DNA from: an uncultured Granulosicoccaceae bacterium
GTDB taxonomy: Bacteria > Pseudomonadota > Gammaproteobacteria > Granulosicoccales > Granulosicoccaceae
DNA: 32,959 nt
NCBI GenBank assembly: GCA_937951695.1
Contig: CALFBL010000274.1
Coordinates: forward strand, 1 to 32,959
Direction: 5' to 3'
In this document: one piece after another, positions 13,205 to 22,868 of the stretch
How the letters are laid out: every line of letters begins with the position of its first letter
Numbering within the stretch: position 1 is the stretch's first letter
Notes under the pieces: generated by a model
What the model saw: the letters and a program-made list of their open reading frames with translations, nothing else
Databases searched by the model: none
What the model was told of the DNA's origin: nothing
Position numbers and translations under genes: made by a program

Positions 13205-14659
13205 CTATGTGCCGGAGCCCGAATTAACCAGATTGGTTAACACCGACGCTACGTAGTCCAGCGCTTTTTGTTGGGCGATATCAACACCCACAAGTTGCAA
13301 TACAAAGGCTTCGTTCGAGGCGACCAGCGCGGTGTGCGATCGGCCGTCATCCAGCACCGTAGCGACTGTGATCACAGACACGGGCACCGATTCATTCAAC
13401 CAAACGACCTGTTCGGAAGCGTTACTACCGCTGGTGTACACGAGGTTACTGGCCAACGACTGGCCGAATAGCTCAGCGGTTTGATTGGTTTCAGCGCTCA
13501 TCAACGTTACTTCAATCGGCGAGGCGTCGACGGCTGATTGATCGTAGTGCTGAAACGCCACCATGCCCTGTATTAATCGGGTGAAGCCATCGATGGCTGC
13601 CGCACGGCGGGTGGGGTCTGAGCGCAGGTTGACGCCTTTTAGTGGTGATGTCTCAACCCGAATCCAGGGCTGGGTATTCCATTCGTGACTAATTGTACCG
13701 CTGGCTTGCAGCAGTTGTTGGTTAAGGGCTTGCCGGTTCTGGTTCGGGAAACTGGATGGATCCAGAATCTGAATCGGATCGACCGGTGGTGTGCGGAGCG
13801 CTGACTCGATGAGTTGCTGTCCGTTAGTTCGCTTAGCCAGAGAGGAAACGAATCGTTCACCTTCGATATAGGAATATTCGAGTACGTTTCGGCTTACCGC
13901 CTGCACGGGTTGCGTTAATTGATTGGGCGTAAGCTTTTCGCCAAACATGAATCGGTCCAGAGACCCAAGACCCGCGAGACAACCACTGCGTTGGCAGATG
14001 CGGCGAGTCAAGTACTGAGCGTGGCCTTCATAAACCGCCGACTGAGCGAACGAGGCACGAAAATTCAAGTTGCGATTGCGATGAATGCCGTATGCAGAGT
14101 CATCGGCTGCGTGCACCAGTTCGTGAATCAGCAGGGCAGTTAATGCGTGCTTTATCGCTTGCGCATCATTACCCACAGATTTGATGTAGCTGCTGAGTAG
14201 CGAACTGCTCACCATAACCTGTTCAGTCTCGGTGGAATACAGAGCGGCGTAGGTGCCCGCCTGACCTGCCATGACATTGGTTAAAAAGTGTTTGGCGAAG
14301 CTTTTGTCGGTGAACTGACTGTGGGTCAGTCGACCGGTCTCGGCGGCAACTTCGACTTCAATAATCTGGTTCGATACGACAGCGAAATTTACGTTCGAAA
14401 GATCGGTACCGGTCTCCCGCTGGACCGAGTCCCTAGCGCGATTGAATAGAGGGGTGAGAGCGGCTTCCCAGTCGGCGCCGCTCATACGTTCAAATGCCTC
14501 AACGCTGTCAAAAAAAGTGATTGAGTCGGCGTCGGGTAATACCGGTGCGTTTGATTCCGGGTTGTAGGCACAACTGGCGACAGTAAGCGCCGTAGAGGCG
14601 ATGACTGCCATCACGTTCGAGCGTGATTGGGGAGAACGTGATGTTGCCGCTGAGTGCAT
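13205..14659 (-). CDS. Hypothetical lipoprotein with HExxH motif (putative zinc metallopeptidase)
   Basis: Lipobox-like LTVASC near the N-terminus; LTALLIHELVHAADD and downstream SAVYEGHAQYLTRR. No family recognised. Confidence 0.6.
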   Translation of the reverse strand: MHSAATSRSPQSRSNVMAVIASTALTVASCAYNPESNAPVLPDADSITFFDSVEAFERMSGADWEAALTPLFNRARDSVQRETGTDLSNVNFAVVSNQIIEVEVAAETGRLTHSQFTDKSFAKHFLTNVMAGQAGTYAALYSTETEQVMVSSSLLSSYIKSVGNDAQAIKHALTALLIHELVHAADDSAYGIHRNRNLNFRASFAQSAVYEGHAQYLTRRICQRSGCLAGLGSLDRFMFGEKLTPNQLTQPVQAVSRNVLEYSYIEGERFVSSLAKRTNGQQLIESALRTPPVDPIQILDPSSFPNQNRQALNQQLLQASGTISHEWNTQPWIRVETSPLKGVNLRSDPTRRAAAIDGFTRLIQGMVAFQHYDQSAVDASPIEVTLMSAETNQTAELFGQSLASNLVYTSGSNASEQVVWLNESVPVSVITVATVLDDGRSHTALVASNEAFVLQLVGVDIAQQKALDYVASVLTNLVNSGSGT

Positions 14660-16517: not shown

Positions 16518-16886
16518 TTAGCTCGACACGGCGAGGCGTAGGAACGGAGACAGCAGGGCGTACAGTAGAAACAGGCAGAACAGCACAATGCCCATGGTGG
16601 CTAAGGGGCGTTTGACGAACTGGTCGTACCAAAGTGGGGCTGTACCCCGAGCAGTATCGGCTTCGTGTTCGGAGCGGCGTTCGTCGGCGCGTGTCTGTTG
16701 GTAATCGTCGATGAGCTTACGGGCTTGTTGCACGTCCTCATCCGGGACCCAAATTCCCGGCATGGCGATGCCCCAATTGCCAGCGGTGGTTTCATAGAAT
16801 TCGATGCGGTGGGTCGCCAATACAGCGCGAACCGCCTCGGCCTCGTCATCAGGTACGTAGCGCAGTTTAAAAACGAGAGTCGACAT
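16518..16886 (-). CDS. Small membrane protein, DUF6164/DUF2007-like
   Basis: MSTLVFKLRYVPDDEAEAVRAVLATHRIEFYETTAGNWGIAMPGIWV followed by one C-terminal TM helix. Confidence 0.65.
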   Translation of the reverse strand: MSTLVFKLRYVPDDEAEAVRAVLATHRIEFYETTAGNWGIAMPGIWVPDEDVQQARKLIDDYQQTRADERRSEHEADTARGTAPLWYDQFVKRPLATMGIVLFCLFLLYALLSPFLRLAVSS

Positions 16887-17757
16887 GTTCGCTAGTATAG
16901 CGACTTAGCCAGGTTGAATAGCGGGATCTGAGTTCGGCAATCTCGGCGGTTCGGCCACGTTTCATTGCCCCGGCGGAATACACCTGAAATTTCTCCCCCA
17001 AGGTCTTGATGGCCTTATCCTTATCGGAATCATCCAACACACCGGCTGAGAGAATCTTGTCCAGAGCAATCAGACGAAACCGGTCCATGGCCATGAATCT
17101 GCGCGAGAGCTGATCCTGATGACCGCCGTGCTTGATGACCAGGGGCGCGTCGCAATAGGCCACCGCTTCGCGGGCGGTCAGGCGCAACCAGAAATCGTAA
17201 TCTTCACAGGCCGGTAGTGTTTCATCGAAGTAACCGATGTCGCTAAACACATCGCGGTGAATCATCGCAGCCGAAGGCGATATAGCGCACAGCGGCAGGC
17301 AGTGTTGAAAAATTCGTCCACCGCGCTTGGCGTGACGTTCGCGCTGATTGACTCGTTGTCCGTTGCGGATCCAGTGCTCGTCGCTGTGACAGAGCCGCAG
17401 CTGTGGTTCCCTTTCCAGCTCGCGCAGTTGCGCCTCGAGTTTTCCGGGGTACCACGCATCGTCTGAATCCAGCAGAGCGATCCAGTCGCCACTGGACGAT
17501 TCGATACCCCGGTTTCGTGCGTGTGAAACACCGTGGTTGGATTGGCGGTAAGTTTTGACCTTCGGATACTGGTTTTTTAACAGATCCCCAGTCGCATCGG
17601 TAGACCCATCATCGATGACGATGATCTCTTCCGGTTGTACGCTTTGTGCAATAACCGAGTCTAGCGCCCGTGCCAGCGTGTGGCAGCGATTGTGGGTCGG
17701 TATGACAACACTGATAGAAGGTTGCTCAGGCATCCCGCCACTGTATATCAGTGACAC
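16867..17757 (-). CDS. Glycosyltransferase family 2
   Basis: ISVVIPTHNRCHTLARALDSVIAQSVQPEEIIVIDDGSTDAT; LDSDDAWYPGKLEAQL; DFWLRLTARE. An internal ATG at 17733 is also plausible. Confidence 0.92.
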   Translation of the reverse strand: MSLIYSGGMPEQPSISVVIPTHNRCHTLARALDSVIAQSVQPEEIIVIDDGSTDATGDLLKNQYPKVKTYRQSNHGVSHARNRGIESSSGDWIALLDSDDAWYPGKLEAQLRELEREPQLRLCHSDEHWIRNGQRVNQRERHAKRGGRIFQHCLPLCAISPSAAMIHRDVFSDIGYFDETLPACEDYDFWLRLTAREAVAYCDAPLVIKHGGHQDQLSRRFMAMDRFRLIALDKILSAGVLDDSDKDKAIKTLGEKFQVYSAGAMKRGRTAEIAELRSRYSTWLSRYTSEHVDSRF

Positions 17758-18708
17758 TTACCGAGGTACCTCATCGCCAACGATCGCCAGTAACTGGTGC
17801 GGGGTGCAAACAGCGGTGTCTAGTTTTGCAAGCAACACCCCATTCATGCGCGCATCGACGGTGAGCGGTTCTGCAAAGGGTCGGTGTGGATCAATAATGC
17901 CAACGATAGGGTTACCCAGATGGACCGCGCAGCCGATGTCCACATACCAATGCACCAAACCGCTGATAGGAGCCGGGACGCGGCACTGATGCTTGCAGAC
18001 TTCAAGAATACGGGTGGAATTCAGTTCGAACCGTACGTCTTTAAGTACGCCAATGTGCAGCAACGCATTGCGAACCGCTGACACACACCTCACGTGCGAC
18101 AGCTTGTCGGTACGGTTGTAATGCCCGAAATCAAAACGCACAAAGGTAGTATCCAACTGTTCGGCAATAGCGGCCAGAGAGCCTGCCAGTGGCGCATCGA
18201 ATCGACGCACACTGTCCGATGCCCCGCTGGCGAACATGATCTCTTCAGCAAGAGCGTTGCGCTCGGCGTCTTCTCCAAGCCAAACGGAGGCGTGTGGGAT
18301 GGTTTCCACAAACGGCGCGCCGCTGCCAATTTCAATGATGACATCGGCCTTACTGAGCACATCGTCTGCAAAACTGTGTTTAAGGTATTCGTAATGATCA
18401 CTGACTAGAGGCTCTGCTGAGGTGGCCGGCAACAACGAAGGGCAAACCACCAAGGTGCCAACAACTTGCTCAAGCCCGATTTCTGCCACCAGGGCTTGCA
18501 GCACGGTTGTGCCAGTGACGTCACCGGGCTGCGTGCCCGAGAGCACGCACACAAACGGCCCATCGCCAGTACGCAGCACACACAGCGGCGTCTGATGAAT
18601 GGCCATAGGGTTGAGCGGATTTGCCAAGGGAGCGGTGTAGTGACCCACCTGACGTCCGTTGGTTGCGACATCCACGTTGAGTGCAGGTCCGGAATCCAGT
18701 GTTGTCAT
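17758..18708 (-). CDS. Succinylglutamate desuccinylase/aspartoacylase (AstE/AspA, DoeB-like) family protein with degenerate zinc site
   Basis: Overall DoeB-like layout: ADVIIEIGSGAPFVETIPHASVWL corresponds to ADVVxDLHSGG..., VRNALLHIGVL, and a C-terminal biotinyl-like domain (VDIGCAVHLGNPIVGIIDPHRPFAEPLTVDARMNGVLLAK). Confidence 0.75.
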   Translation of the reverse strand: MTTLDSGPALNVDVATNGRQVGHYTAPLANPLNPMAIHQTPLCVLRTGDGPFVCVLSGTQPGDVTGTTVLQALVAEIGLEQVVGTLVVCPSLLPATSAEPLVSDHYEYLKHSFADDVLSKADVIIEIGSGAPFVETIPHASVWLGEDAERNALAEEIMFASGASDSVRRFDAPLAGSLAAIAEQLDTTFVRFDFGHYNRTDKLSHVRCVSAVRNALLHIGVLKDVRFELNSTRILEVCKHQCRVPAPISGLVHWYVDIGCAVHLGNPIVGIIDPHRPFAEPLTVDARMNGVLLAKLDTAVCTPHQLLAIVGDEVPR

Positions 18709-18783
18709 GAATGATCTCTAGAGGGCAACGTCAAGTGCATCGACTGATAGAATGCAAAAGATGTGCTACGACCGAACGAACCG

Positions 18784-20562
18784 ATGACTCAGCAGCAAAT
18801 CGCCATCAGTGTTGTGCTGGTGGTCACGATGGTGTTGTTTGGCTGGGGCCGCTGGCGCTACGATCTAGTGGCTATGTTTGCCTTGGTGTCTTGCGTCTTA
18901 TTGAGGCTGATTGACCCTGCCGATGCCTTCACCGGATTCGGCCATCCGGCGGTTATTACCGTGGCGGCAGTGCTGATCATCAGTGCTGCGCTTAAGAATG
19001 CGGGGGTGGTGGATGAGATCGCTAGCCGTCTGAGTGGACTGACGAAAACCCCGATTATGCACATCGCAGCCTTAACCAGTGTCATTACAGTGGCGTCAGC
19101 GTTTATGAATAACGTCGGTGCCTTGGCATTGCTGCTGCCGATTGCTTTGTCCACGTCGGCTGAGCGCGACCGCTCGCCTGCGCTGATCTTGATGCCGTTG
19201 GCGTTTGGCAGTTTGCTCGGCGGCATGATGACCTTGATCGGTACACCACCCAATATCATCATTGCCAACATTCGGGCCAGTGAAGCCGGTGAGCCTTTTG
19301 GTATGTTTGCTTTCTCTCCAGTAGGTCTACCGATTGCGATTATCGGCGGTGCATTTATCACGTTCATCGGTTGGCGCTTGATTCCCAAAGCGCGAATGGA
19401 GAGTAATAACGCCAGCAGTTTGTTCGAGGTGGGTAACTACCTGACCGAAGCCAAAGTGCTGGAAGACTCCCCCATTGCCAACCAGACACTTGGCGAGATA
19501 GACGGCCTACAAGACAGTAATGTGGAAGTGATTGGAATTGCCGGTCGGCGACATTTTGCCCGTACCGTATCGGCAAACTACACGATTAAAATCGGTGATG
19601 TACTTATCCTGCAATCAGACCCCAATGAGTTAAAAGGGTTTTTGGATGAGTTCAATCTGGAACTGCAAACCACCGCAACGCCTGCATTCAACACGCCGAC
19701 ACCGGAAAACGATGTAATGACCGAAGGGGTGGTGAAAACTGATTCTCCGTTAATCGGTCGAGGGGTTGAATTCATTCGTCGCCGCACGGCTCGCTCGGTG
19801 GCTTTGGTAGGGATAGCACGAAATGGTGAATCGGTGTTGAGGCGCTTACGGCAGCAGACGTTTAAGCCTGGCGACGTGTTGCTACTGAATGGCGATGTCG
19901 AGTCCATCGATCAGCATATGGTGGACATGGGGTTATGGCCATTGGCTAGCCGGCCAATCGATTTACATCGCAGCCGGCGCGTGCTGCTTGCCGGGGCTAT
20001 TTTTGCCATCGCTATCGCCATCGGTATCGCCGGCATTACCTCGTTACCCATAGCGTTTTTGATAGCAGTCGGCGCCTACGTGGGCACCGGGATATTAACG
20101 CCACGGCAAATTTACGATGATATCGATTGGCCTGTCATTGTGTTATTGGCGGCGATGATTCCCGTGGGCAATGCGCTAACGACCACTGGCACCACATCGC
20201 TGGTGGCGAACGCATTGGTGACGCTGACCGATGGCTTTACAATTTACTGGATTATCACCCTGTTGCTGGTGGTGACCATGTTGCTCTCGGACGTCATCAA
20301 TAACGCAGCAACGGCCCTTGTTATGGCCCCTTTGAGCATCGCCATGGCAAATTCACTGGGCGTTAACAGTGACCCATTTCTAATGGCAGTGGCGGTGGGT
20401 GCATCTTGTGCTTTTCTGACGCCTATCGGTCATCAGTGCAACACGCTGGTGATGGGGCCGGGGGGGTATAAATTCAGTGATTATTGGCGTATGGGTTTGC
20501 CTCTGGAAATCATTATCGTGATTATCAGTGTGCCTTTGATCCTTTGGTTCTGGCCACTGTAA
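18784..20562 (+). CDS. SLC13/DASS-family permease with two RCK_C (TrkA-C)-like domains
   Basis: Multiple TM helices; FMNNVGALALLLPIAL and LLSDVINNAATALVMAPLSIAMA repeat motifs; internal soluble region ALVGIARNGESVLRRLRQQTFKPGDVLLLNGDVESI (RCK_C). ATG at 18784. Confidence 0.9.
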   Translation: MTQQQIAISVVLVVTMVLFGWGRWRYDLVAMFALVSCVLLRLIDPADAFTGFGHPAVITVAAVLIISAALKNAGVVDEIASRLSGLTKTPIMHIAALTSVITVASAFMNNVGALALLLPIALSTSAERDRSPALILMPLAFGSLLGGMMTLIGTPPNIIIANIRASEAGEPFGMFAFSPVGLPIAIIGGAFITFIGWRLIPKARMESNNASSLFEVGNYLTEAKVLEDSPIANQTLGEIDGLQDSNVEVIGIAGRRHFARTVSANYTIKIGDVLILQSDPNELKGFLDEFNLELQTTATPAFNTPTPENDVMTEGVVKTDSPLIGRGVEFIRRRTARSVALVGIARNGESVLRRLRQQTFKPGDVLLLNGDVESIDQHMVDMGLWPLASRPIDLHRSRRVLLAGAIFAIAIAIGIAGITSLPIAFLIAVGAYVGTGILTPRQIYDDIDWPVIVLLAAMIPVGNALTTTGTTSLVANALVTLTDGFTIYWIITLLLVVTMLLSDVINNAATALVMAPLSIAMANSLGVNSDPFLMAVAVGASCAFLTPIGHQCNTLVMGPGGYKFSDYWRMGLPLEIIIVIISVPLILWFWPL

Positions 20563-22052: not shown

Positions 22053-22868
22053 TCACTGACACAGAACCTGGTGTGGCGAGTTGGGTTCTGCGGCGCCGTT
22101 ATGAACCAGCAGTGTTTGCCGGCCTTGGCAAGACGCGTTCGACGCATCGGTTTGTGGGCCATCCACGGTGGTATTGACCGACAGCACACCCGCGTCAGTG
22201 ATCTCGGATACCAATGCTGAGGTAATGGCCTCGCTTTCGGTGGCGGGATCGATGTAGTTGCTCAATGAGTCCAGCTGCGCAATGGATTCCCATTCTCTGC
22301 CATCATCGTATAAGACATGAGTGATGTCGCGTGGTTGGTCAGCGCCTTCGTCGAGTATGAAGTATTGCAGGGCAAGGGTGCTTTCAGCCAGATTCAGTGG
22401 GTTACTGGCAACGGCTTTCACCCCCGACACCCGAAATGGGGGGGTGGCGTTCAAGCCTGAGTTGATGAGTTTTTTCAGCTCTTGATCGAGGATGGCGCGA
22501 TGGCGCTCGCTAAGCTTGTCGATGCCATCGGTATCCAGCCATTCCGTGCACTCAAAGCCCCACTCACTTTCATATTTGGCACGAAGTTCATAAATTTTTG
22601 CCGAACAAAACATTGTCTCATTGTTGGCATACCACATAACCCGACGGGACTGATCTTGATAGGTCACCGCTACCTCACACAAATGTTCCTGGCCGGGCAG
22701 TTCTAACCGAATGAAACGGCTTTCGCCGGGCACTGAGCATTCAAACTCTTGCGCATCGGCTGTGTGGCCGGTGGTGATGGTTGCGAATACCGCGCACGCG
22801 CACAGTGTGTTCTTGAGAAGTGCAGGGGCGCTGGGTCGGTGGTCTCGATGCTGTGAAAGTGACATCAA
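22053..22868 (-). CDS. Secreted protein of unknown function
   Basis: 271-aa ORF with N-terminal hydrophobic segment (LLKNTLCACAVFATITTGHTADA) and several Cys. No family recognised. Confidence 0.6.
   Translation of the reverse strand: MMSLSQHRDHRPSAPALLKNTLCACAVFATITTGHTADAQEFECSVPGESRFIRLELPGQEHLCEVAVTYQDQSRRVMWYANNETMFCSAKIYELRAKYESEWGFECTEWLDTDGIDKLSERHRAILDQELKKLINSGLNATPPFRVSGVKAVASNPLNLAESTLALQYFILDEGADQPRDITHVLYDDGREWESIAQLDSLSNYIDPATESEAITSALVSEITDAGVLSVNTTVDGPQTDASNASCQGRQTLLVHNGAAEPNSPHQVLCQ

Follow-up and report, generated by a model that had tools for sequence, protein, structure and literature searches.

Can a protein with the fold of a zinc-dependent deacylase be kept in a genome once the residues that should hold its metal have been replaced, and if so, what is kept? 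This question is raised by a gene in the stretch of DNA that was analysed here (the window, 32,959 nucleotides), which is part of a 3.09 Mb MAG of a marine gammaproteobacterium of the Granulosicoccus type. From the letters alone, a catalytically dead member of the AstE/AspA superfamily had been proposed at this locus (the original prediction). The explanation that fits the data best, to which we assign a probability of roughly 0.85, is that the gene encodes an orthologous pseudoenzyme that is present throughout the genus, in which an ancestral, transporter-linked DoeB-like deacylase has been made non-hydrolytic.

The gene and its neighbourhood

The gene encodes a protein of 316 amino acids and spans positions 17758..18708 of the minus strand, with its ATG at 18708 and its TAA at 17758-17760. 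The span given by the original prediction was exact; the strand had been left unstated and is minus. The plus strand of the same interval contains several stops. Upstream and divergently oriented lies a transporter of the SLC13/DASS type (18763..20562, plus strand; CitMHS with TrkA_C domains), which was identified by Pfam, homology and synteny (VcINDY E=4e-23, weaker matches to NaDC3). Next downstream of the gene follows a family 2 glycosyltransferase (GT2; 16867..17757, minus strand) and then a DUF6164 protein (16518..16886, minus strand), both assigned by Pfam and synteny. Throughout the genus the GT2 gene is syntenic wherever the contig extends to it, and so is the DUF6164 gene.

Further syntenic genes were noticed in the window. 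The one at 13205-14659 (minus strand) has no Pfam family and a weak likeness to a Hvo_1808-type surface protein (E=1.6e-8), and the one at 22053-22868 (minus strand) has neither a Pfam family nor an NCBIfam match.

Fold and family of the window protein

Among proteins with solved structures, the window protein is closest to DoeB/EutE (6twm, E=3.4e-15), and the gene tree with DoeB likewise places it in the AstE/AspA superfamily. An AlphaFold2 model, built from the window protein aligned with 36 homologs from the fetched loci, had a mean pLDDT of 93.2 and a pTM of 0.91. In a Foldseek comparison of this model, the structural check that the original prediction had called for, the best PDB match was DoeB 6twm with a TM of 0.88 over essentially the full protein; 6twm, 3cdx and 3na6 matched with TM values (query) of 0.85 to 0.89. 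The model contains both domains of the superfamily fold, the N-terminal hydrolase and the C-terminal beta domain. By sequence and predicted fold the window protein is a DoeB-type AstE/AspA protein.

It shares with DoeB/EutE (N(2)-acetyl-L-2,4-diaminobutanoate deacetylase; TIGR02994; PDB 6twl, 6twm) the fold, the domain order, the overall length and the C-terminal beta domain. However, the gene does not adjoin doeA, and the NCBIfam DoeB model TIGR02994 matched with E=1.6e-23 and 83.2 bits, below the curated cut-off of 402.7 bits. No Pfam family was assigned to the protein at E 1e-3, and a search of the window's own genome with PF24827 returned two other genes only. The DoeB-like identity that had been proposed thus holds for sequence similarity and fold, whereas the protein lies outside the family as delimited by the curated models. 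From the AstE/AspA zinc deacylases (PF24827; aspartoacylase, succinylglutamate desuccinylase, CphZ), with which the superfamily fold is common (TM 0.5 to 0.7), it also differs in having no zinc site.

Remnants of the active site

An HxxE motif and a later His as zinc ligands, plus a catalytic Glu, are the positions that we take to be functional from established knowledge of the AstE/AspA family. In an alignment with intact relatives, the GxHGDEyeG zinc motif corresponds to GTQPGDVTG (residues 58-66; 18511..18537, minus strand, as are all features of the gene), in which the first ligand is changed from His to Gln60 (18529-18531) and the second from Glu to Asp63 (18520-18522). DLHSGG corresponds to EIGSGA (residues 126-131; 18316..18333), where Gly128 (18325-18327) replaces the third ligand His. 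The NRxFPG substrate-binding segment is missing: 18 residues are gone between residues 99 (E99) and 100, at the junction 18411..18412, and the segment is equally absent from the orthologs G011, G019, G004, G008 and G016. These substitutions and the deletion are those of the original prediction, all of which were borne out by the alignment. It had further read the region of the catalytic Glu as DFG. RFDFG is indeed found around residues 191-195, with Asp193 at the position of the catalytic Glu in a pocket loop (R191..S204; 18097..18138), but the window clade still keeps an acidic residue at this position (D, D, E, D).

The window clade comprises four proteins, the window protein and those of three other MAGs with 60, 50 and 47% identity to it, all showing the same motif pattern. 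Because this pattern recurs in three further MAGs and the fold is predicted with a pLDDT of 93, the losses go beyond chance or a sequencing slip. The C-terminal beta domain (residues about 232-316; 17761..18015) is intact, with GLVHWxVxxGxxVHxGNPI and QLLAxVxDEVP invariant in the clade; together with the open frame and the predicted fold, this agrees with the intact scaffold that had been described over 316 amino acids.

That Gln and Asp are in principle able to ligate zinc counts against a loss of the site. Csd4 of Helicobacter pylori, a more distantly related metallopeptidase of similar fold (Foldseek matches 4wcm, 4wcn and 4wck), reportedly uses an atypical Gln in place of the zinc His. The window protein could accordingly still bind a metal and hydrolyse a substrate by means of Gln60, Asp63 and a ligand from elsewhere, and Gln does occupy the first position in three of the four clade members, while an acidic residue is kept at the catalytic position in all of them. 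Yet in Csd4 the Gln is reportedly needed as a ligand, whereas the window protein has lost the third ligand too, position 3 being Gly or Ala; in the ortholog of G004 the three ligand positions are occupied by Asp, Tyr and Ala, and the substrate loop is deleted in 4/4 members. The zinc ligands are absent from all four, and no single alternative set of ligands is conserved at those positions. Further His and Cys residues that do not vary within the clade are H38, H139, H218, H253, H263, C43 and C54. We therefore regard a remaining metal-dependent hydrolase as very improbable. The window clade has no zinc site left, which makes hydrolysis very unlikely.

Orthologs show a graded loss of the metal site

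A syntenic ortholog was found in 27/27 genomes of the genus, located between the SLC13-type transporter and the GT2 and DUF6164 pair as far as the contigs reach. The transporter adjoins the gene in 25/27 of them and in all three orthologs from two sister genera (G028, G030 and G031), where the same gene lies beside the same transporter. In the gene tree the genus members form one branch (SH-aLRT 99, bootstrap 83), and a tree of concatenated neighbour proteins resolved three groups within the genus that match the motif states. In G028 and in several genomes of group III, the gene adjoins one for a protein of about 230 amino acids with a conserved glycine-rich N-terminal part, which may be TerB-like (loci L028, L029, L030, L032, L033, L035 and L076).

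Across these 30 genomes three orthologs are fully equipped, 12 are without the third His, nine also without the catalytic Glu and six without an intact zinc site. HGDE, NR, DLH and the catalytic Glu are all kept in the three sister-genus orthologs. The third zinc His, intact in these 3/3 outgroup proteins, has given way to Arg, Gln, Gly or Ala in 27/27 genomes of the genus; the homologs with like substitutions, which the original prediction had suggested collecting, thus reveal a wider phenomenon than it had described. In group II (12 genomes) the first ligand His and the second ligand Glu are kept, and so is the catalytic Glu in 11/12; without exception, Arg stands at the third ligand position and Asp replaces the Asn of NRxFPG. 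In the nine genomes of group III the third ligand is Gln or Arg and the catalytic Glu is found in 0/9, with the first ligand also lost in 7/9 (Arg, Phe or Glu) and the second replaced by Gln in one. Group I (6 genomes, the window included) has Gly or Ala at the third position, no His at the first and no Glu at the second, and lacks the NRxFPG loop. The simplest history is a single loss of the third His at the root of the genus, with several later losses that were independent of one another; the residue that first took its place was probably Arg, which is one base away from His.

The replacement Arg of group II is coded by CGC, CGT and AGA, which indicates that the residue was kept while the codon drifted. 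Within this group, where only 66/327 columns (20%) are invariant, none of the four residues His, Glu, Arg and Asp varies. One might imagine that, at this one locus, a metal-free protein took the place of a metal-dependent deacylase in the whole genus, with the Arg at the third zinc position and the Asp at the old NRxFPG Asn forming, in group II, a new salt-bridged, metal-free pocket round the kept His and Glu. Such proteins could be dedicated sensors of the ancestral substrate that control the SLC13-type transporter, or could carry out a new metal-free chemistry. We consider this extended scenario tentative and rather unlikely.

Outside the genus, in 369 genomes of the class, a profile of the window clade matched only DoeB-like proteins in which the zinc residues are kept; window-like proteins beyond the genus were hence discarded as a candidate. 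One DoeB-like protein (L178 in G405) carries HGEE instead of HGDE as its zinc motif.

Selection on the pseudoenzyme genes

Reading frames are open in the 27 genomes, with the gene of G007 running to the contig end. As the original prediction had proposed, dN/dS was determined (pairwise NG86, in which many or most dS values were saturated). In pairs with little saturation it amounted to about 0.11-0.13 among G024-G026 and 0.09 for G012/G018, and for the window and G011 to about 0.16 (0.30/1.93), with dS near saturation. The open frames and the values of about 0.1 in close pairs indicate that the proteins are under selection, and on these substitution rates the family is maintained by purifying selection.

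Of 316 columns, 104 are invariant in the window clade. They include the blocks SVRRFDxP, RxxxGxYxxTDKxS (the pocket loop) and GLVHWxVxxGxxVHxGNPI, none of which was seen in the enzymes. E155, R168 and R233 are nearly invariant over the 27 genomes and common to most intact outgroup orthologs, not to most DoeBs. That these three residues were kept while catalytic residues were lost suggests that selection acts on a non-catalytic feature of this orthologous group.

A functionless gene, caught in decay before its frame was lost, would equally show progressive loss of catalytic residues and fast protein evolution. The gene in fact evolves fastest among five genes of the window clade (dN 0.30-0.55; the four neighbours in the comparison have 0.08-0.36, the transporter among them 0.08-0.11), and constraint is therefore weakened. 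Nevertheless, none of the 27 genomes has a stop in the frame despite their deep divergence, dN is far lower than dS, and the window clade has sharply conserved blocks that are new to it (SVRRFDxP, TDK and GLVHW). We therefore consider decay highly improbable. A pseudoenzyme, as originally proposed, is favoured by the loss of the ligands in 4/4 members of the window clade, by a gene that is intact and orthologous genus-wide, and by the same excess of dS.

Partners and the transporter link

Instead, the protein might serve as a subunit that regulates or stabilises a catalytically active paralog, DoeB or AstE, of the same cell. EutD and EutE (DoeA/DoeB) act as a pair, presumably through transient contacts (PMC8739950), and two AstE-like paralogs with intact zinc motifs are present in the window's own genome. 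However, a DoeB over the curated cut-off was found in 0/4 genomes of the window clade (81 to 97% complete) and in only 6/27 of the genus, so DoeB is not a general partner and regulation of an active DoeB was rejected as the general role. The subunit idea as a whole appears doubtful to us, with a link to the two AstE-like paralogs being possible. A role in ectoine catabolism was also rejected, as doeA-like genes lie elsewhere and do not track the pseudoenzyme gene; in the window genome the doeA-like match is on another contig (G000:C238:11985-13145; 546 bits, cut-off 613). The window clade has a DoeA-like hydrolase just below the curated cut-off, yet no DoeB above it.

Mammalian NaDC3 transports N-acetylaspartate, the substrate of aspartoacylase, which is an AstE/AspA enzyme (PMC11021635). 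By analogy, the ancestral carrier may have brought in an N-acyl amino acid that its partner enzyme then deacylated, and the present protein may still bind the ancestral ligand, or a partner, without hydrolysing it. In G008 (L082) and G016 (L081) the transporter is missing from the locus, the remaining best transporter matches being distant, and the pseudoenzyme gene stays, which argues against a strictly transporter-bound role. The pseudoenzymes of these two genomes are the most decayed. Outside the family, in a record of Nitrosomonas sp. OFTM113 (L142:4786-5832), a related SLC13-type transporter is directly preceded, on its upstream side, by a DoeB-like frame in two parts; the pairing may therefore be older, or may have arisen more than once.

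Discussion

We propose that the ancestor was a DoeB-like zinc amidohydrolase whose gene adjoined that of an SLC13-type anion transporter and whose substrate was probably an N-acyl amino acid taken up by the cell. The third zinc His would have been the first to go, at or near the base of the genus; later losses, differing between lineages, would have affected the catalytic Glu, the two other zinc ligands and the NRxFPG substrate loop. Purifying selection for a non-hydrolytic job, most likely the binding of a small acidic ligand or of a protein partner, would have preserved the fold together with the C-terminal domain and a remodelled pocket. The analysis shows the homology, the fold, the loss of the ligands, the orthology, the open frames and a dN lower than dS, whereas the loss of activity is inferred; regulation of the neighbouring transporter, like the identity of the ligand, is speculative.

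Pseudoenzymes as such are familiar, and in pseudopeptidases of the M14 carboxypeptidase family (for example CPD domain III and AEBP1/ACLP) a metallohydrolase fold likewise outlasted its active-site residues and took non-catalytic roles (PMC11266112). In contrast to the window protein these are eukaryotic and belong to another family. A paper on an AstE/AspA pseudoenzyme was not found in a literature search that covered few subscription journals.

Common as pseudoenzymes are, intermediate stages at one orthologous locus are seldom preserved. With its 30 genomes and open frames, the graded series allows tests of the order in which a metal site is dismantled and of the function that persisted after catalysis was lost. 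It also carries a warning for annotation, since automatic naming as desuccinylase or aspartoacylase would assign to these proteins an activity that they probably lack.
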